Positions 15,524 through 44,812 of a stretch of DNA of 62,502 bases are shown one piece after another (positions within the stretch are counted from its first letter, which is position 1; every line of letters begins with the position of its first letter). The notes under the pieces were generated by a model. The model did no database searches. It had not been told where the DNA came from and was given only the letters and a program-made list of their open reading frames with translations. Source of the stretch: Chloroflexota bacterium. GTDB lineage: Bacteria; Chloroflexota; Anaerolineae; DUEN01. A program made the position numbers and the translations under genes. The stretch spans positions 1 to 62,502 of the forward strand of contig JAADGJ010000141.1 in the NCBI GenBank assembly GCA_013152435.1, written 5' to 3'.

Positions 15524-17182
15524 TCACCGGCGCAGGAAACGCCGCTCCAGCTCCTCCAGGCTCAGGGTGATGAAGGCCGGACGTCCATGTGGACAGACGG
15601 CCGGGGACCAGTGTGCAGCCATCTCGTCGACCAGCTTCTGCATCTGGTCGAAGGAGAGGATATCGCCAGCCTTGATGGCGGCCGTGCAGGCCGCTCGCGC
15701 CGCCAGCGTCTCCCGCAACGCGGTTGCGTCGGACCACCTCCGGGAGGCGATCTCTTCGATCAGGGCGGTGATCAGGTCGGCCAACGGCACCCGTGCCAGG
15801 GAGACCGGAAGGGATCGCAGGATCAACACGTCCTTGCCGAACGGCTCGATCTCAATGCCCAGATCGGCCAACACGTCCAGATGCTCGGAGAGCACGGCCG
15901 CCTCACGCGAGGTGATGGGTAGGCGGAAGGGCGGGCTCACCTCCTGGCGATGTTCCCCGCGCAGCAACCGCTCGAAGAGGATGGCCTCATGCGCCGCGTG
16001 GGGATCGACGACCACCAGCCCCTCCGGCGATTGGGCCAGGATGTAGCTGTTGTGCAACTGCCCCACCGCCCGCAGCGGGGAATCGGCGTGATAGCCCGGG
16101 CCGACCTCGCGAAGCTGCTCATACGCGGTATCCTGGGTGTACTCCCCGAAAGGCCACTCCATCGCGCTGGGCGTGCCATCCCGAGGGAACGGGTTCAACG
16201 CCTCCTCCACCGCCTGCGAGAGCGCCCAATAGATGGACCGTTCATGCATGAATCGCACCTCTGCCTTGGTGGGATGCACGTTCACATCCACATAGACCGG
16301 ATCCATGTCGATGAACACGACGGCCATGGGATGGCGGCCGAAGGGCAGCCGCCCCTCGTAGGGGCGCTCCAGAGCGATGGCCAACAGCCCCGAACGGACG
16401 GGACGTCCGTTGACGTAGAAATGCTGGGCCTGACGGCGCGCCCGGCCCAGGGAGGGGCGGGAGATGATCCCGTGCACCCGGAGATCGGCGGCCGTCCACT
16501 GCAAGGAGACGCTCTCCTCCGCGAACTCTCGGCCCAGGCAGACGGCGACCCGCTCCTGTAGCGTCCCGGCCGGAGCGACCAGCGTCTCCCGGCCATCCGC
16601 GGAGAAACGGAAGGCGACGCGCGGGTAAGCCAACGCGTAGCGCACCACGGTATTCCGACACAGCTCCGCCTCGCGCAGCGGGGACTTCAGAAACTTGCGT
16701 CGAGCCGGGGCGTTGTAGTACAGGTTGGTGACGGTGACACTACACCCGGCCGGGGAGGCAGCCGGCTCAACGGTGGTACGGCCATCCTGCACGGTGGCGT
16801 GAGTGCCCTCGAGCTCCTCTCGGGCGCGCGTGCGTAGGTCCACACGGCTGACGGCCGCGATGGCGGCCAGGGCCTCGCCGCGAAAGCCCAAAGTGCGCAC
16901 GCGGTGGAGATCGGACACGGAGGCGATCTTGGATGTCGCGAAGCGCTGGAAGGCCAGCGGCACATCCTCCCGCCGGATCCCCGTCCCATCGTCGGATACC
17001 CGGATCATCTCCAGCCCGCCTTGGCGGATCTCCACCGAGATGGCGGTGGCCCCGGCATCCAGGGAGTTCTCGATCAGCTCCTTCACGACGGAGGCCGGTC
17101 GTTCGATGACCTCTCCGGCCGCGATGCGCTCAGAGACGCTGGGATCCAGAACTCGGATACGAGCAGCTTCTGATTCCGTCAT
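15524..17182 (-). CDS. mutL: DNA mismatch repair protein MutL (endonuclease-type)
   Basis: A 552-aa MutL. The GHKL ATPase part covers about residues 1-340, with KELIENSLDAGA, DDGTGI and GFRGEALAAI. The C-terminal dimerisation domain carries an endonuclease-like motif near residue 387, DPHAAHEAILFE, which is the DQHAxxExxxxE motif with Gln replaced by Pro. It also has the companion ACTAAIK and CPHGRP motifs. This suggests a nicking MutL rather than one relying on MutH. No mutS is next to it. The ParB-like gene lies upstream on the same strand, 89 bases away. Confidence 0.95.
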   Translation of the reverse strand: MTESEAARIRVLDPSVSERIAAGEVIERPASVVKELIENSLDAGATAISVEIRQGGLEMIRVSDDGTGIRREDVPLAFQRFATSKIASVSDLHRVRTLGFRGEALAAIAAVSRVDLRTRAREELEGTHATVQDGRTTVEPAASPAGCSVTVTNLYYNAPARRKFLKSPLREAELCRNTVVRYALAYPRVAFRFSADGRETLVAPAGTLQERVAVCLGREFAEESVSLQWTAADLRVHGIISRPSLGRARRQAQHFYVNGRPVRSGLLAIALERPYEGRLPFGRHPMAVVFIDMDPVYVDVNVHPTKAEVRFMHERSIYWALSQAVEEALNPFPRDGTPSAMEWPFGEYTQDTAYEQLREVGPGYHADSPLRAVGQLHNSYILAQSPEGLVVVDPHAAHEAILFERLLRGEHRQEVSPPFRLPITSREAAVLSEHLDVLADLGIEIEPFGKDVLILRSLPVSLARVPLADLITALIEEIASRRWSDATALRETLAARAACTAAIKAGDILSFDQMQKLVDEMAAHWSPAVCPHGRPAFITLSLEELERRFLRR

Positions 17183-36250: not shown

Positions 36251-36280
36251 TACGTATCGGCAACAAAAATCGTGCCCTCC

Positions 36281-36309
36281 TTGTCAAACCATATCATCGG
36301 CGGTACAAT
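36281..36309 (+). promoter_or_regulatory. Promoter of the MoxR-DUF58-DUF4129 operon
   Basis: TTGTCA (36281-36286) and TACAAT (36304-36309) have a 17-base spacer. The -10 box overlaps the in-frame ATG at 36308, which argues that translation starts further downstream. Confidence 0.5.
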
Positions 36310-36340
36310 GCCCTCACAAGACGAGCGTTGGGGGCAGAGG

Positions 36341-37288
36341 GTGCAAGAGGTCCAAGATTTCGCGGCGCGGGTGATCGAGAACGTCGAACGGGTGATCGTC
36401 GGCAAACGGCGCACGATCGAGTACATCGTCGTGGCCTTGCTGTGCGAGGGCCACGTGCTGCTGGAGGACGTCCCGGGCGTCGGCAAAACCATGCTGGCGC
36501 GGGCTATCGCCGCCTCCCTGGGGGTGACGGCCAGGCGGCTCCAATGCACCCCGGATCTGCTGCCCAGCGACGTGATCGGCGTCTCCGTCTTCAACGAGAA
36601 AACTCGCGAATTCGAATTCCGCCCCGGGCCAGTGTTCTCCAATGTCCTCCTGGCCGACGAGATCAATCGCGCGACCCCCCGCACGCAGGCAGCCCTCCTG
36701 GAGTGCATGGGCGAGCGCCAGGTCACCGTGGACGGGATCACTTATCCTCTGAAGCGCCCTTTCCTCGTCCTGGCCACCCAGAATCCCATCGAATACGAGG
36801 GCACCTTCCCCTTGCCCGAGGCACAGCTCGACCGCTTTCTGCTGAAGCTCAGCCTGGGCTATCTGGACGCAGAGGAGGAGTCCCTCATGCTCCTCAACCT
36901 GCAGCGCCAGCATCCCATCGAGCAATTGGAGTCAGTGGTGGATGGGGATCGCGTCCCGGACCTGGCTCAGCGGATCTGGGACGTTCACGTGGACGACACC
37001 GTGCGCGACTACATCGTACGGCTGGTACAGGCCACGCGCCATCACCCCGACCTGGCCCTGGGGGCCAGCCCGCGCGGGAGCCTGGGGCTGTTCCGCGGCA
37101 GCCAGGCCCTGGCGGCCATACGCGGCCGCGATTTTGTGCTGCCCGATGACGTGAAAGAGCTGGCCCCCCTGACCCTGGCACATCGCTGCATCGTCCACCC
37201 CGAGAGCGCGCTGCGAGGCCGGACGGCCGTACAGATCATCGAAGACGTCCTGGAACAGGTGGAGCTGGATATCGGGGAGCTGCGCTGA
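36341..37288 (+). CDS. MoxR-family AAA+ ATPase
   Basis: An AAA+ chaperone-like ATPase of about 315 aa. The Walker A is [16 protein letters not shown] and the Walker B is [21 protein letters not shown]. Sensor 1 is at [25 protein letters not shown]. MoxR proteins work with von Willebrand/DUF58 partners to remodel or activate other proteins. I prefer the GTG at 36341: the in-frame ATG at 36308 is inside the -10 box, and 36341 leaves about 15 residues before NVERVIVGK, as is usual. It is the first gene of MoxR-DUF58-DUF4129. Confidence 0.9.
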
Positions 37289-37346
37289 TCACCGCCCGCC
37301 GAGGAGACGCGCCGAAACGCGCACCTTGGGGCCAGGGAGCCCGTGA

Positions 37347-38405
37347 ATGGATATCCCGTTTCTCATCATCCTGCTCTTCGCCCTCTTCATCCTGCTACGC
37401 ATTGAGTTCATCTTTTACATTATATATGTCCTCTTCGGGACCTGGATCGCCGCCCGGTGGTGGGTGAGGCGAGTGGCAAGCCGGCTGGAGATCCGACGCG
37501 CATACGCGGACCACGCATTCCTGGGAGATCAGGTGCGGGTCGAGCTTCGCATCGAGAACCGCAGCTGGCTGCCCGTCCCATGGCTGCGCGTCAGCGAATC
37601 GGTCCCCCTGATGTTGCATTCACCGAACTTCGTGCGTCGAGTGGTCACGCTGCCCGCGCACGGCCACGCCACCATCACATACACGTTGGATTGCCGGCAG
37701 CGAGGCTACTACGCGCTGGGGCCGGCCAGCTTTCGCACCGGCGATCTCTTCGGGTTCGCTGAGACGCAGGTCCAGGAGCCGGAAGAGGATCACATCACCG
37801 TCTATCCGCGCATCGTCCCCCTGACACAGCTGGGCATCTCCTCCCAATTGCCGTTCGGGGCGATACGAACCCGACAGCGTCTGTTCGAGGACCCCGTGCG
37901 CGTGAGCGGGTTGCGCGACTATGAGACGGGAGATCCGCTGCACCGTATCCACTGGAAGGCAAGCGCCCATGCGGGGGAGCTTCTGGTGACCAAGCTGGAC
38001 CCCGCCATCTCGCTGGAAACGGCTATCCTGCTGAACCTGAACGCGGCGGAGTATGAGCAGCGACAGGCCATCCACGCCAGCGAGTGGGCCATCATCGTGG
38101 CTGCCTCCATCGCCCACCACCTGGCGGAGCAACGACAGCCGGTGGGGCTGTTCACCAACGGGCACGACCCCGTCAGCGGACGGGGATGGGCGGCGGGGCT
38201 CCCACCTCGCTCCGGGCGAGGGAACCTGATCAAGTTACTGGAGGTGCTGGCTCGCATCGAGCTGGCCCGCGAGGCGCGGCCGTCCTTCGCCGCCTGGATG
38301 CGCGAGGCCACCTTGGATCTCGGATGGGGCACGACGGTGATCGCCATCACGCCCAAGGGGGATGAGGCGACCTGCCAGGCCCTTCGCTGCAACGGGCTGG
38401 CCTGA
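37347..38405 (+). CDS. DUF58 protein, apparently frameshifted near its 3' end
   Basis: A 352-aa frame. Two membrane helices at about 3-40 precede a beta-rich region and the DUF58 core, FEDPVRVSGLRDYETGDPLHRIHWKASAH (about 180-210), which is part of a vWA-like domain. It normally partners MoxR. The frame stops at 38403-38405, but the -1 frame continues without a break to 38557 with sequence that fits a DUF58 C-terminus. A one-base indel in the genome or the assembly, or a programmed shift, could explain this. Confidence 0.82.
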   Translation: MDIPFLIILLFALFILLRIEFIFYIIYVLFGTWIAARWWVRRVASRLEIRRAYADHAFLGDQVRVELRIENRSWLPVPWLRVSESVPLMLHSPNFVRRVVTLPAHGHATITYTLDCRQRGYYALGPASFRTGDLFGFAETQVQEPEEDHITVYPRIVPLTQLGISSQLPFGAIRTRQRLFEDPVRVSGLRDYETGDPLHRIHWKASAHAGELLVTKLDPAISLETAILLNLNAAEYEQRQAIHASEWAIIVAASIAHHLAEQRQPVGLFTNGHDPVSGRGWAAGLPPRSGRGNLIKLLEVLARIELAREARPSFAAWMREATLDLGWGTTVIAITPKGDEATCQALRCNGLA

Positions 38406-38557
38406 ACACCATCCTCATCGTGGTGGAGCCCAGCCTCCAATTCAAAAAGATACGGCAGCGGGCCCACCATCTTGGATTCCCGGCATATCTGGTCGCCTAC
38501 GAGCGAGATCTCGATCTTTGGCGCTCGCCGGCCGGGGCGGGTGAGCGCATCCGATAG
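38366..38557 (+). other. Displaced C-terminal coding segment of the DUF58 gene
   Basis: In the frame one base back, the codons from 38366 to the TAG at 38555-38557 encode a plausible continuation: SLQRAGLNTILIVVEP, then GFPAYLVAYERDLDLWR. The first half reads as a vWA strand-helix (ILIVV). The segment has no start codon of its own and ends 12 bases before the next gene, the spacing expected of an intact operon. Confidence 0.65.
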
Positions 38558-38568
38558 GGGAGGGGGAT

Positions 38569-40212
38569 ATGGCCGAGGCCCCTGTGGAACAAAGCCTTAT
38601 GCCCCAGGATAGCCTGTGGCTGCGAGGGATCCTCCGGCCACTCATGGTGGCCCTGCTGGCCACATGCCTGGCCATCGGGTTCATCGCCGTGGCGCAGGCG
38701 GCGATCCCCGGGTGGGGACGCGGAGCCGTGCTCCCGTTCCTCTCGCTGGTCGCTCTGGAGGCGGTATACACCACGCTGTGGCTGGCCGCATCGGAGCGGC
38801 GCGATCGACGCACCTTCCGGTTTCGATTCGGCGAGATCTGCCTTCTACTCATCGCGGCCCGGCTCCTCACCTTCTACGTCAAGGGACAATGGCCAACCGC
38901 CACGCTGCTCTCGCAATGGCTGCGCTCCCCCCTGAGCTTCTTCGATGGCACGTCGTTCTTCCTCGGGATCTTGACGCTGATCGTCTGGGGACAGAGCACC
39001 GCGATGATGGGCGCACTCGAGCGCATGTCCCTGAAGCCGGACGAACTGGTGGTCAGGCCGCTGTCCGCGCGCGACCTGGATTGGAACGAGATACGCGCGC
39101 GACATCCGTCGCGCTCCATGCTGTTGAGGGAGTTCAGCACGTACTGGCTGTGGGGAGGCGTGCTCCTGGCCTTGTGCGCGGGGCTGTCACGGGTAGAGCT
39201 GAAGCCAGCCGTCGGACAACTGATCGGCATCCGACACCTAGGGATCACACCGATGCTCCAGGGCGCCCTGGTCATCTACTTCCTGGGCGGCCTCCTGCTG
39301 ATCAGCCAGGGACGCTTGGCCGTGCTGCGAGCCCGCTGGCGGTACGAGGGAACGGACACGGACCCCGAGCTCGTGCGGCGCTGGGGAAGGTTGGGCATCG
39401 GCATGCTGGCCCTTGTCGGGTTGCTGGCCGCGCTGCTGCCGTTTGGGTCCTCCTTCACGATGGCACGCATCCTGGCGGCGGTGATCAACTTCATGATGCA
39501 GATCTCGTACGCCGCTCTCCTGCTCTTCTTCGCCCTGTTCGCGTGGCTTCTGGGATTGCTGGGGCTCGGAAGCGAACAGGCCCCGGCGGCCGAGGCCCTG
39601 CGGCCCCCTCCGGAGCCCCCGGATATCGCCACCAGCAGCCTGCATCTGCCCGACTGGCTCGGCGGCGCCCTGGTCTGGCTGCTCATGGCCGTCATCATCG
39701 GCTATTCGGTGGTCGCCTATCTGGGCGGGAGAGGCATTCGCCTGGACAGCCGTTGGCTGCGTCGCCTGTGGCACTGGTGGCGCGCCTGGTGGCAAACCTG
39801 GCGAGGGCGAACGCGGCGACTCGGCCAGCGCGTTCGCTCCATGATCGCCCTCACGTTGGCATCGGTGGGCGGTGGGGGGGTGCCCCGTTGGCGTTTCCTA
39901 AGCCTGCGCAAGCTGGGGCCGCGAGAGCGGGTGCGCTATTTCTATCTCTCCACCGTGCGGCGGGCTTCCGAGCGGGGGGTTCCCCGACAACCCTCTGAGA
40001 CCCCTCATGAGTATGAGGTCGATCTGACGGCTCACTGGCCCGAGATCGAACAGGATCTGACATCGCTGACGGAGGCCTTCGTCGATGCCCGTTACAGCGC
40101 GCATCCGCTTCAGCCGGAAGATGCCAGGCGGGTACAGGAGATATGGCGACGCGTGAAGGCTGCGCTGCGGCAGCGCGATCGGGAAGAGGGCCAAGACAGC
40201 AAGTTGACATAA
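38569..40212 (+). CDS. DUF4129-domain membrane protein
   Basis: A 547-aa protein with about nine or ten hydrophobic helices spread over residues 20-390. A basic Trp/Arg-rich loop follows, then a C-terminal cytosolic DUF4129 domain (about 450-530), RVRYFYLSTVRRASERGVPRQPSETPHEYE, ending in helices. DUF4129 is commonly found with MoxR and DUF58 and often fused to transglutaminase domains, but no transglutaminase Cys-His-Asp set is seen here. Start follows GGGGAGGGGG. Confidence 0.78.
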   Translation: MAEAPVEQSLMPQDSLWLRGILRPLMVALLATCLAIGFIAVAQAAIPGWGRGAVLPFLSLVALEAVYTTLWLAASERRDRRTFRFRFGEICLLLIAARLLTFYVKGQWPTATLLSQWLRSPLSFFDGTSFFLGILTLIVWGQSTAMMGALERMSLKPDELVVRPLSARDLDWNEIRARHPSRSMLLREFSTYWLWGGVLLALCAGLSRVELKPAVGQLIGIRHLGITPMLQGALVIYFLGGLLLISQGRLAVLRARWRYEGTDTDPELVRRWGRLGIGMLALVGLLAALLPFGSSFTMARILAAVINFMMQISYAALLLFFALFAWLLGLLGLGSEQAPAAEALRPPPEPPDIATSSLHLPDWLGGALVWLLMAVIIGYSVVAYLGGRGIRLDSRWLRRLWHWWRAWWQTWRGRTRRLGQRVRSMIALTLASVGGGGVPRWRFLSLRKLGPRERVRYFYLSTVRRASERGVPRQPSETPHEYEVDLTAHWPEIEQDLTSLTEAFVDARYSAHPLQPEDARRVQEIWRRVKAALRQRDREEGQDSKLT

Positions 40213-41089: not shown

Positions 41090-41247
41090 TATCTGGTTCG
41101 TACCCCAATTCGGAAAGAGCGGACCAGGCCGGTTGCGTATTGGCGCGCATAATTTCCTCTTCGACTTTGAGGAATGGCGGTGGGCCCCGGTGTTTGTCGT
41201 TCCCTTTCCACGCGGCGGCCCGGTGGTATGAGCCAAAGGAGGGTAGG

Positions 41248-41577
41248 GTGACCACAACAACGCAGGCTGAAGTCGCCCGTCTGGAGCAAGAGTTGGCCGA
41301 GGCCAGGGAGAAGCTGGCAGCCGTCGAGGAACAGCTGGCAGAGCGCCCTGACTTCGGCTTGGGCCAGGGTAACGCGATGATCTACGAGTGGGAGATGAAC
41401 CTGGCCGAGCGTGAGCGCCTTCAGGAGAAGATCGCTTCCCTGGAAGAGGCGCTGGAAAAGGCGCGGGCAGGACGTTACGGGATCTGCGAGGTGTGTGGTC
41501 AGCCCATCGACCCGGAGCGGTTGAAGATCCTGCCCGACACCAAGCTGTGCGTTAACTGCGCGGCTTCCAAACGATGA
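41248..41577 (+). CDS. DksA/TraR-type zinc-finger protein
   Basis: A 109-aa protein. The first 75 residues form a long coiled-coil-prone helix pair rich in Glu/Ala/Arg. The C-terminus has the four-Cys DksA finger, CEVCGQPIDPERLKILPDTKLCVNC. DksA-type proteins bind RNA polymerase's secondary channel; the tip residues needed for ppGpp response are not certain here. The GTG at 41248 follows AAGGAGGG; the frame opens earlier (41140), but those codons lack family similarity. Confidence 0.85.
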   Translation: MTTTTQAEVARLEQELAEAREKLAAVEEQLAERPDFGLGQGNAMIYEWEMNLAERERLQEKIASLEEALEKARAGRYGICEVCGQPIDPERLKILPDTKLCVNCAASKR

Positions 41578-41692: not shown

Positions 41693-44600
41693 ATGGCGAT
41701 GACCGAAGGATTGGAGCGAAGCTGGGAAGATCTAGCTTCTGCCCTGAACCCACGTCAACGGGAGGCGGTAACAGCGCCGGCAGGGCCTTTGCTCGTCATC
41801 GCCGGCCCCGGTAGCGGCAAGACGCGCGTCATCACCTACCGAGCGATCTACCTCATCACCCAGCGAGGCGTCCCGCCCGACCGCATCCTGGCCGTCACCT
41901 TCACGAACCGGGCTGCCGAGGAGATGCGTGCACGCCTTGAACAGGTGGCAGGCGTATCCGGCGAGGACATCTGGCTTCACACCTTCCACGCCGTCGGCCT
42001 TCGTCTCCTGCGCGAGCACGGCGAGGCCATCGATCTGCCTGCCGATTTCATCGTCGCCGACGAGGAGATGCAGCATCAGGCGTTGCGGGATGCACTGCGA
42101 GAGCTGGACCTCAGCCCAGAGCTATACCCGATCCACGCCTTGCAGGATTACATCAGCCGCAGAAAGGGCGCCATGCAGGATCCAGCGCGCTCCCTGGCCC
42201 GGGAGGAGATGGAGATCATCTACGCGGACGTCGCGCGCGCCTATCAGGATTGGCTTCAAAAACACCAGGCCCTCGACTTCGATGATCTGATCTATTACGC
42301 CGTGCAATTGCTGGCGCGCCGGGCAGATATCCGTCGCCAGGTACAGGCGCAATTGCCCCATGTGCTAGTGGACGAGTACCAGGATATCAACCTGGCCCAA
42401 TACCATCTGCTGACCCTGCTGGCCTCCCCGGGAAGCGATATCACCGTCGTCGCCGACGGCGACCAGTCCATCTACGGCTGGCGGGGGGCTCAGCCATCGC
42501 TGATCGATCGGTTCCAGCGCCGCTACCGCCCGCGCGTGATCGTGCTCGAGCAGAGCTACCGTTCCACTCAGACAATCCTCTACGCCGCCCAGTGGCTGAT
42601 CGCCCGCGGCCAGGCACCTCCCTGGCGCGACCCCAAGCGGCGGACCTACCTTCGCACCGTTCACTCACGCGGCGATCCCATCTACCACTACATTTTCGCC
42701 ACAGCTCAGCAGGAACAGGCCTGGCTGGCCGCCCTGATCCGCCGCCTGCACGAGGAGCGGGGCTATCGGTATGGCGACATCGCGATCCTGTACCGCACCC
42801 ACCGGCTGGCCGACCCGCTGGAGGGCTACCTGGTCCAGCACGGCATCCCGGTGCATCGCGTGCAAAAAGATCACTTCTTCCGGCGCCCCCTGGTGCGCGA
42901 GGTAACCCGATATCTGCATCTGTTGCGCTCACTGGCCTCCGCGCCGGACCAGGAGGTGATCGCCGCCCTCAACTTCCCGCGAACGTTGGTGGACGAGCTG
43001 ACCATCATGCAGCTAGAGCGGCTCGCGCACCGTCATCAGATCAGCCTAGCAGAGCTGGTCCGTTCCAGCGATCGTTTCCCCGAGCTCAGCCCGCTGACCC
43101 GGGCGGCCTTACGCTCCTTCCTCCAACTCTTCGAGGAGGAACTGCGTCCGGTCGCCCATCAGCCGGTCACCGTGATCGTGGAACGGTTGCTGGATACCCT
43201 GGCGGTCCGCCGTAGGCCTTTTGACCCCGAAGAGTGGCGGCGCCTGCTCGACTGGGCCGAGTTCTCCGCCCGCCCCGACGCTGTAGCCCGGATTCGCGAT
43301 TGGCTGGATCGCCGTGTACCTTTCACCGTCTACGCTCCCCCCACGATCGATGGCGCGTGCGCGGCAGCCATCCTGTGCCGCGCCCTGCGGGACTATCTGG
43401 CCTACCCCGTCGCCGCCCAATTGGACGCGTCGCTGGACAGCCCGCAACTGAACCTCGTCGCCGAGGGGGAGCCGGCGCTGACCGTGCACGTCCCGCCCCA
43501 GCGCGCAGTGGGCCAATCCCTCGCCGCCATCGCCTGGAGACTGGCACAGGATATCCTGGCAACCTATGAGACCCTCGCCGACGGCCGGTTCGTGGTGTAT
43601 GATCTGGAGACTACGGGCACGAATGTCCGTCGGGATGAGATCGTGGAGATCGGGGCCCAAGTCATGGAACATCGACGAGATGCGGCCCCACCTTTCTATT
43701 CGCTGGTACGCCCCGCCCGGGGCTCCATCCCGGCGGCGGCGACGAAAGTGCACGGCATCTCCTGGGCCGATGTGAAGGACGCGGATCCCATCGAGGTCGT
43801 GTTGCCGCGATTCCTGGCGTATGTGGGAGAGTCCACGGTGGCCGGGCACAACATCATCGCGTTTGACAACCGGTTCGTCGATCGGGAGGCCGCCCGGCTG
43901 TTGGGACGCTCCTTTCGCAACCCGGCGCTGGACACCCTGTCGCTGGCCCAGCGCCTGCTGCCCGATGAACACAGCTACAGCCTGGAACACCTCCTACGCA
44001 GGCTGAAGCTGGGCGAGGCGGTTGAGCATCGCGCGGCCCAGGATGTCCAGCAGACACAGATGCTCCTGCTCGCCCTGCTTGAGGAGAACCGGCGACAGCT
44101 GGCGCTGAATGCCCTGCCGGAGATGCTCCCGTGGGTGGGGTTGGGCCTGCTGGGCGCTGAGGCCGATTTGGAGGACGAGAACCGGGCGCTATGGCACGGC
44201 GCATTGCGCACGCGAGAGCTCGCGCCCCCGCTGGAGGAACACATCGTGGCGCAACTGCCGGTGGAGGAGCGCGCTCGACTGGATGAGCTCGCGCGGCGCC
44301 TGATGGCCGTACCGCCCCCACCCATGGCCGAAGATGAGGCCTGGAGCGCCATGCGCGAGAACTTCATGGCCTACCTCGCGAGCTTCGCACGCTTCAGCCG
44401 GGATCTCTCGCTGGGCGCCTTCCTGGACCACCAGGCCCTGGTCACCAGCCTGGACATCGAGGGCACGGGGACGGAAGGGGACCGGGTGACGATGATGACC
44501 CTTCACAACGCCAAGGGAACGGAGTTCCCGGTGGTCATCATCATCGGTGTGGAGGAGGAGAATCTGCCTCTGTGGACGACCATGGAGGAGGAGGAGGCGC

Positions 44601-44812
44601 TGGCTGAGGAGCGTCGCGTGTTCTACGTGGGTATGACCCGAGCGCGAGAGCGGCTGTTCCTCTGCTCTGTACGCGATCGAGGCGATGGCTTCGTTCGCCT
44701 GCCCTCCCGATTCGCGTTCGAGCTGCCCGCCGAATACGTGCGCCGCTTTCGCATCGATCCCCAGGGGCAGGTGCAGGAGCTTGACCCATCCGGCAAAACG
44801 GCGGAAAGATGA
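41693..44812 (+). CDS. UvrD/PcrA-type helicase with an internal DEDDh exonuclease domain
   Basis: A 1039-aa protein. Helicase motif I GPGSGKT is at 38-44. DEYQD (motif II) and GDQSIYGWRGA (motif III) are in the expected order, and motif V/VI (MTLHNAKGTEFPVVII near 934 and VFYVGMTRARERL near 976) close the fold at the C-terminus. Between them lies a DnaQ-type 3'-5' exonuclease at about 630-790: DLETTG (Asp637), HGIS, the AGHNIIAFDNRF motif (Asp725), and HRAAQD (His779, Asp784), so all DEDDh residues are present. The stretch at 505-630 is not part of a normal UvrD. Single-stranded DNA unwinding coupled to degradation is the likely role. It has its own gene context after a terminator. Confidence 0.9.
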   Translation: MAMTEGLERSWEDLASALNPRQREAVTAPAGPLLVIAGPGSGKTRVITYRAIYLITQRGVPPDRILAVTFTNRAAEEMRARLEQVAGVSGEDIWLHTFHAVGLRLLREHGEAIDLPADFIVADEEMQHQALRDALRELDLSPELYPIHALQDYISRRKGAMQDPARSLAREEMEIIYADVARAYQDWLQKHQALDFDDLIYYAVQLLARRADIRRQVQAQLPHVLVDEYQDINLAQYHLLTLLASPGSDITVVADGDQSIYGWRGAQPSLIDRFQRRYRPRVIVLEQSYRSTQTILYAAQWLIARGQAPPWRDPKRRTYLRTVHSRGDPIYHYIFATAQQEQAWLAALIRRLHEERGYRYGDIAILYRTHRLADPLEGYLVQHGIPVHRVQKDHFFRRPLVREVTRYLHLLRSLASAPDQEVIAALNFPRTLVDELTIMQLERLAHRHQISLAELVRSSDRFPELSPLTRAALRSFLQLFEEELRPVAHQPVTVIVERLLDTLAVRRRPFDPEEWRRLLDWAEFSARPDAVARIRDWLDRRVPFTVYAPPTIDGACAAAILCRALRDYLAYPVAAQLDASLDSPQLNLVAEGEPALTVHVPPQRAVGQSLAAIAWRLAQDILATYETLADGRFVVYDLETTGTNVRRDEIVEIGAQVMEHRRDAAPPFYSLVRPARGSIPAAATKVHGISWADVKDADPIEVVLPRFLAYVGESTVAGHNIIAFDNRFVDREAARLLGRSFRNPALDTLSLAQRLLPDEHSYSLEHLLRRLKLGEAVEHRAAQDVQQTQMLLLALLEENRRQLALNALPEMLPWVGLGLLGAEADLEDENRALWHGALRTRELAPPLEEHIVAQLPVEERARLDELARRLMAVPPPPMAEDEAWSAMRENFMAYLASFARFSRDLSLGAFLDHQALVTSLDIEGTGTEGDRVTMMTLHNAKGTEFPVVIIIGVEEENLPLWTTMEEEEALAEERRVFYVGMTRARERLFLCSVRDRGDGFVRLPSRFAFELPAEYVRRFRIDPQGQVQELDPSGKTAER

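Follow-up and report, generated by a model that had tools for sequence, protein, structure and literature searches.

In the window, the 62,502-nucleotide stretch of DNA analysed here, the gene at 41693-44812 encodes an SF1A UvrD-family helicase in which motifs I-VI and the UvrD_N and UvrD_C domains are all present, and whose two halves are separated by an insert of ~380 amino acids. Remote homology indicates that this insert is itself nested, being apparently a degenerate RecJ DHH domain into which a DEDDh exonuclease has been spliced. The inner exonuclease is predicted to be live, and the RecJ-derived part around it to be dead.

A literature search, with thin coverage of subscription papers, found no description of a nested UvrD/RecJ/DEDDh architecture, and genome annotators may already have given such proteins a name without remarking on them. 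The component enzymes are of known kinds; their nesting, together with the RecJ relic, appears to be new, at least to us. Bacterial helicase-exonuclease fusions have been little studied (PMC12345164). In the other fusions that we found, the domains are arranged end to end, whereas here the nuclease lies two levels deep in the regulatory 2B subdomain. The protein therefore offers a test case for the re-use of 2B and for the coupling of unwinding with strand removal in one chain, and it bears on why helicases may have recruited dead RecJ modules more than once.

A UvrD-family motor with an insert in 2B

The features of the helicase are as follows, with the basis of each in brackets.

41693-44812, + strand: whole gene, 1039-aa UvrD-family helicase with nested insert (open reading frame, Pfam, PcrA alignment)
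41732-42862, + strand: N-terminal part of the helicase motor (aa 14-390), comprising 1A/1B and the first part of 2A, motifs I-IV (domains, alignment, model, motifs)
41804-41824, + strand: Walker A, GPGSGKT (aa 38-44) (homologue alignment, motif reading)
42371-42385, + strand: Walker B / motif II, DEYQD (aa 227-231) (homologue alignment, motif reading)
42863-43207, + strand: first part of the 2B subdomain (aa 391-505) (alignment to PcrA up to PcrA 494; 41.4% median identity)
42974-43006, + strand: FPRTLVDELTI (aa 428-438), family motif opposite PcrA PKRGIGASTI (PcrA alignment, homologues)
43211-44356, + strand: insert relative to PcrA (aa ~507-888) (PcrA alignment)
44357-44473, + strand: last 2B helices (aa 889-927), where the PcrA alignment resumes (PcrA alignment)
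44495-44644, + strand: second part of 2A with motifs V and VI (Pfam, PcrA alignment, Foldseek, motifs)

The N-terminal part of the motor has a median identity of 51.5% to 20 homologues. It contains the Pfam UvrD-helicase match (aa 18-278, E 3.9e-77), motif III as GDQSIYGWR (aa 256-264) and an LEQSYRST stretch at aa 285-292. The Pfam UvrD_C match is split into two stretches, the best of which covers aa 894-992 (2.2e-47 for the family), and motifs V and VI read MTLHNAKGTE (aa 935-944) and RRVFYVGMTRA (aa 974-984). The original prediction, a UvrD-type helicase that encloses a complete DEDDh exonuclease, is thus borne out by the reading frame, the Pfam domains and the positions of the motifs.

Alignment with PcrA pairs aa 12-506 with PcrA 6-494 and then aa 889-1016 with PcrA 513-646, and ~380 residues of the fusion stand where PcrA has ~18. 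Read against the known domain limits of PcrA, this alignment would place the insert close to where the 2B subdomain ends. The earlier proposal of a 2B insertion agrees with this comparison, although the predicted 2B itself is of low confidence.

In the full-length structural model, the helicase core and the exonuclease are of high confidence. When the model was searched with Foldseek, UvrD/PcrA structures aligned over both halves (~1014 columns for 650-residue targets), which brings motifs V and VI within the helicase fold, as had been foreseen; AdnAB and AddAB were also matched, ranked below UvrD/PcrA. The 2B/RecJ-like part of the model, with pLDDT about 35-60 and alignment fragments misplaced by MAFFT, was left out of interpretation.

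The fusion is not a PcrA, UvrD or Rep orthologue, as its curated scores, its separate clade and its loss of the GIG motif attest. It does not reach the curated equivalog scores for pcrA (471.9 of 911.2 bits), rep (407.9 of 951) or uvrD (376 of 1144). The GIG motif of 2B contacts duplex DNA in UvrD-family monomers (PMC13238157); it has been lost from the fusion, and a conserved FPxxLxDELT is found instead in 21/21 members. Within FPRTLVDELTI, P and T are each conserved in 21/21 members, and D and E each in 20/21. Because the alignment ends at residue 646 of the 724 of PcrA, the fusion lacks the C-terminal extension found in PcrA, and it terminates shortly past motif VI. A PcrA-type protein (L001) is also encoded in the same genome.

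The inner exonuclease

43586-44092, + strand: DEDDh (DnaQ/PolC-type) 3'-5' exonuclease (aa 632-800) (Pfam, profile alignment, structure matches)
43601-43609, + strand: Exo I, D637 and E639 (YDLETTG) (invariant in homologues)
43865-43867, + strand: Exo II, D725 (invariant in homologues)
44027-44044, + strand: Exo III, H779 and D784 (HRAAQD) (invariant in homologues)

Pfam identifies RNase_T at aa 634-788 (E 2.4e-29, 103.5 bits against a cut-off of 24), between the two UvrD halves; the nuclease is internal, as originally described, unlike the C-terminal nucleases of AddA and RecB. Asp637, Asp725, His779 and Asp784 had been named in motif order at exactly these positions, and E639 is present in addition. 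All five residues are invariant across all homologues examined, in keeping with the conservation expected of a catalytic site. The exonuclease is as well conserved as the motor (median identity 53.8% against 51.5%). Its predicted fold, with pLDDT mostly >90, matches the PolC exonuclease 2p1j, DnaQ and ExoI, and its nearest relatives are the proof-reading domains of PolC and DnaQ.

Several other proteins carry a domain of this kind. A viral match (L075, to query residues 84-374) proved to be a DnaQ with an apparent BRCT tail and no helicase, and was rejected. Also set aside were the next-best exonuclease matches, Chloroflexota proteins of ~700 aa that read as UvrC-like or as sensors, with an unrelated DEDDh domain. 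Separately, genome G033 encodes a 676-aa apparent membrane sensor (L030 / L047), PAS-like by eye, with a C-terminal DEDDh exonuclease.

A degenerate RecJ domain around the exonuclease

43238-43585, + strand: putative degenerate RecJ DHH domain, first part (aa 516-631), with the motif I block YAPPTIDGACAAAIL and the AWRLAQDIL helix (profile searches)
43349-43351, + strand: D553, sole retained RecJ metal ligand (equivalent to D. radiodurans RecJ Asp83) (alignment; ligand list from PMC4846377)
44099-44242, + strand: putative degenerate RecJ DHH domain, second part (aa 803-850), LPEMLPWVGLGLLGAEADLEDENRAL resembling the RecJ motif IV region LLDLVALGTVADIVPLLGENRDL (profile searches)

The original prediction named an exonuclease in the insert. 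The exonuclease stands, but the RecJ-derived domain around it, like the loss of GIG, had been overlooked. Upstream of the exonuclease the sequence reads AVARIRDWLDRRVPFTVYAPPTIDGACAAAILCRALRDYL...AWRLAQDIL, and downstream it reads LPEMLPWVGLGLLGAEADLEDENRALWHGAL. For comparison with RecJ, the exonuclease was cut out of the family profile and both flanks were joined. Against 29 RecJ loci of Anaerolineae-type Chloroflexota, the joined profile gave one collinear run of 154 columns (score 63.8, probability 95%, E 3e-8) that took in the motif I region, the AGVGVAYHLARGLL helix and the LLDLVALGTVADIVPLLGENRDLV region. The best of 150 column shuffles scored 21.4, the reversed profile 14.1 and other pieces of the same proteins 13.8-18.1.

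Independent collections point the same way. Among the 18,950 models of NCBIfam, recJ is the sole match of the window member (E 7e-5) and matches 10/16 members, and every other model matches at most one. Among 177,635 PDB sequences, the profile had just two matches, RecJ 8y30 (E 0.011) followed by archaeal 5yh1 (E 0.12), which we take to be a DHH-family nuclease. Pfam has no match in the RecJ-derived part, and a PDB search with the first RecJ-like part alone gave noise only; the link becomes clear through the joining of both exonuclease flanks. Single-sequence scores are weak, as might be expected of a remote relic, and the case for a RecJ origin is made by the agreement of the searches.

The two-metal site of D. 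radiodurans RecJ is formed by Asp79, Asp81, Asp83, Asp135, His159 and Asp223 (PMC4846377). RecJ GDFDADG aligns to APPTIDG in the fusion, where only the equivalent of Asp83 is left (D553, Asp in 19/21 members). The middle of the domain is shortened and contains nothing equivalent to RecJ motif II or the DHH motif, and members of the fusion family do not conserve the aspartate of motif IV. With 5/6 metal ligands thereby missing from the aligned blocks, the RecJ part is predicted to have lost its activity. By Pfam, DHHA1 and RecJ_OB domains are absent from the fusion and present in the ordinary RecJ (L035) that is encoded elsewhere in the same genome. The linker parts are fast-evolving, with 28-32% median identity. 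In the fusion of genome G164 (L102), two extra low-complexity stretches occur in the RecJ-like parts, flanking the exonuclease.

Distribution, descent and genomic context

By a tally of long-coverage matches, the fusion is present in 23/199 genomes of the class, the window genome included; the class is Anaerolineae-type Chloroflexota, as the Caldilineae record L004 indicates. The frames are mostly ~980-1170 aa and run without stops in independent genomes, with three cut by contig ends. Outside the class, a 400-genome sample of the phylum yielded two fusion genomes, G208 and G432, the former with 8% contamination, such that its fusion could be a binning error. A scan of genome contigs with one query sequence returned one record, in Caldilineae (L004), apparently identical to a contig of a same-genus genome. 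The same architecture therefore does recur elsewhere and is lineage-restricted, as had been supposed, within a broad sampling that covered Chloroflexota only.

Carriers are patchily distributed: genome G023, of the same family as the window genome, is without the fusion, and in family f15 it occurs in 10/10 sampled genomes. In a tree of the helicase parts, the 21 fusions included group in a single clade with 100/100 support, separate from 26 plain PcrA-type proteins, and no unfused close helicase relative of the motor was found in 301 genomes of the phylum. Most likely, the nested array arose a single time, before the sampled members diverged, and was then inherited with losses.

The fusion gene is chromosomal and solitary. 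The phage and plasmid records searched do not contain it, nor do the viral-contig matches, and around 21 copies there are no conserved neighbours and no partner subunit gene alongside. The only notable synteny concerns three genes upstream of the helicase (36272-40212, + strand) that read as a MoxR-type ATPase, a DUF58-type protein and a membrane protein, homologues of all three being found next to the fusion in G164 (L102) and G188 (L105) as well. Directly upstream of the helicase (41140-41577, + strand) is a gene for a small protein with a terminal CEVC...CVNC zinc-finger, DksA/TraR-like by eye, which is not conserved as a helicase neighbour.

A proposed mechanism of strand excision

We propose, at about an even chance of being right, that the protein is a one-polypeptide machine for strand excision, rather than for resection of the RecBCD type, in which a 3'-5' motor is combined with an exonuclease acting on the trailing 3' end and with a dead RecJ domain as mount or guide. 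DEDDh exonucleases take nucleotides off 3' ends. As a motor advances 3'-5', the 3' end of the strand it tracks falls behind it, and it is on this end that a DEDDh exonuclease can act. The motor would travel 3'-5' along one strand, as in the UvrD family, and the exonuclease on its 2B arm would digest that strand 3'-5' from the trailing end, such that a single polypeptide would both unwind the duplex and remove one strand. The RecJ part, predicted to be unable to form a two-metal site, might provide a rigid mount or scaffold, or might guide single-stranded DNA, much as Cdc45 has been proposed to bind DNA (PMC4846377, PMC4873980). The likely job of such a machine would be strand excision from a nick, or the clearing of 3' flaps and stalled 3' ends. 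Were the exonuclease to face the fork, like the tip of 2B, and not the rear, its encounter with 3' ends would be of another kind; the 2B and RecJ parts are of low confidence in the model.

The polarity of UvrD is 3'-5', and in E. coli mismatch repair it unwinds from a nick, after which ExoI, ExoVII or ExoX digests 3'-5', and RecJ or ExoVII 5'-3' (PMC8235422). The proposed role would be closer to that of WRN, or to excision by UvrD with ExoX, than to RecBCD resection. MutL contacts the 2B subdomain of E. coli UvrD (PMC13238157); it was found in 43/44 genomes tested, with or without the fusion, which lends no support to a link with mismatch repair. The window also carries a second MutL gene (15746-17158, - strand, a frame of ~553 aa), the main MutL being on contig C54, and two MutL genes occur in several, though not all, relatives regardless of the fusion.

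A more specific arrangement, which we advance tentatively as possible rather than probable, is that of a UvrD holding a RecJ holding a DnaQ: a helicase-RecJ fusion in which the dead, Cdc45-like RecJ guides single-stranded DNA and passes the strand, once unwound, to the exonuclease within. If true, these three nested enzymes would make up a strand-excision machine complete in itself, and would parallel in bacteria the way in which the eukaryotic replicative helicase recruited a dead RecJ.

Alternative explanations

The original prediction raised a RecBCD-like role, in which the enzyme, like RecBCD or AddAB, would load at double-strand breaks for processive degradation feeding recombination. A UvrD-family motor and a nuclease do share one chain, AdnAB and AddAB are among the Foldseek matches (below UvrD/PcrA), and the window genome has no AddA/RecB-type UvrD_C protein, its PDDEXK_1 proteins being only short. 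Such a role is nonetheless unlikely, since Pfam detects no PDDEXK nuclease in the fusion, no gene for a partner subunit lies beside it, and a DEDDh exonuclease destroys the very 3' strand that RecA needs. Further, an AddB-like nuclease (frames of at least 770 aa) is found in 9/23 carriers against 8/21 non-carriers, a frequency equal with and without the fusion, which suggests that the fusion neither replaces nor accompanies AddAB. A defence function against phages or mobile elements is more improbable still. UvrD-like helicases with nucleases are known in defence systems such as Gabija, and there are weak matches to the helicase motifs of GajB; against this, conserved defence partners are lacking around the 21 copies, the phage, plasmid and viral-contig searches were empty, and inheritance within families, as in all ten sampled f15 genomes, argues otherwise.

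Somewhat doubtful, though of more weight than either of these, is a looser coupling of motor and nuclease, in which the exonuclease would be a proof-reader or trimmer of 3' ends at stalled replication or flaps, while the helicase would work mainly as a Rep-like translocase that strips proteins from DNA. The 2B subdomain of Rep ties translocation to protein displacement (PMC6158625), and in the UvrD family 2B regulates unwinding rather than catalysing it (PMC13238157). The kinship of the exonuclease with proof-reading domains also favours this reading. However, the nested geometry has been kept fixed over deep divergence, which suggests coupling of motor and nuclease over a loose tether. That the insert is inert, with a decaying exonuclease, or that the fusion is an artefact of assembly or annotation, is scarcely credible: fast evolution of the linker parts might be cited in its favour, but long stop-free frames in independent genomes and invariant catalytic residues speak against it.

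Comparison with known systems

Strand excision by a single polypeptide, as we propose it, can be set beside several known enzymes. With PcrA, UvrD and Rep the fusion shares all motor motifs and a fold spanning both of its halves; it differs in its ~380-aa 2B insert, in having FPxxLxDELT for GIG, and in forming a separate clade. WRN joins a 3'-5' helicase to a 3'-5' DnaQ-like exonuclease, and trims 3' flaps. The likeness is one of work only, as WRN is an animal protein with a RecQ (SF2) motor and an N-terminal exonuclease. AddA, RecB and AdnAB likewise place a UvrD-family motor and a nuclease in one chain, but theirs is a C-terminal PDDEXK nuclease with an obligate partner, whereas that of the fusion is DEDDh and internal, with no partner seen.

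The ExoDinG proteins of S. aureus and B. subtilis consist of DinG with an N-terminal DEDDh domain, and SaDinG is a coordinated nuclease-helicase in crosslink repair (PMC12345164). These, too, are bacterial helicases with a DEDDh 3'-5' exonuclease in one chain; their motor, however, is SF2, XPD-like and 5'-3', and their exonuclease is N-terminal, while the fusion is SF1A with its exonuclease nested internally. In the window genome, a separate frame of 968 aa contains a DEDDh domain and is taken as DinG-like by its length. Finally, Cdc45 is a RecJ without metal ligands that is tied to a helicase, and its DHH domain also holds an insertion (PMC4873980, PMC4846377). Cdc45 is a separate subunit of CMG and retains DHHA1, whereas the fusion appears to keep a shortened DHH remnant inside the motor itself, together with a nuclease predicted to be live.
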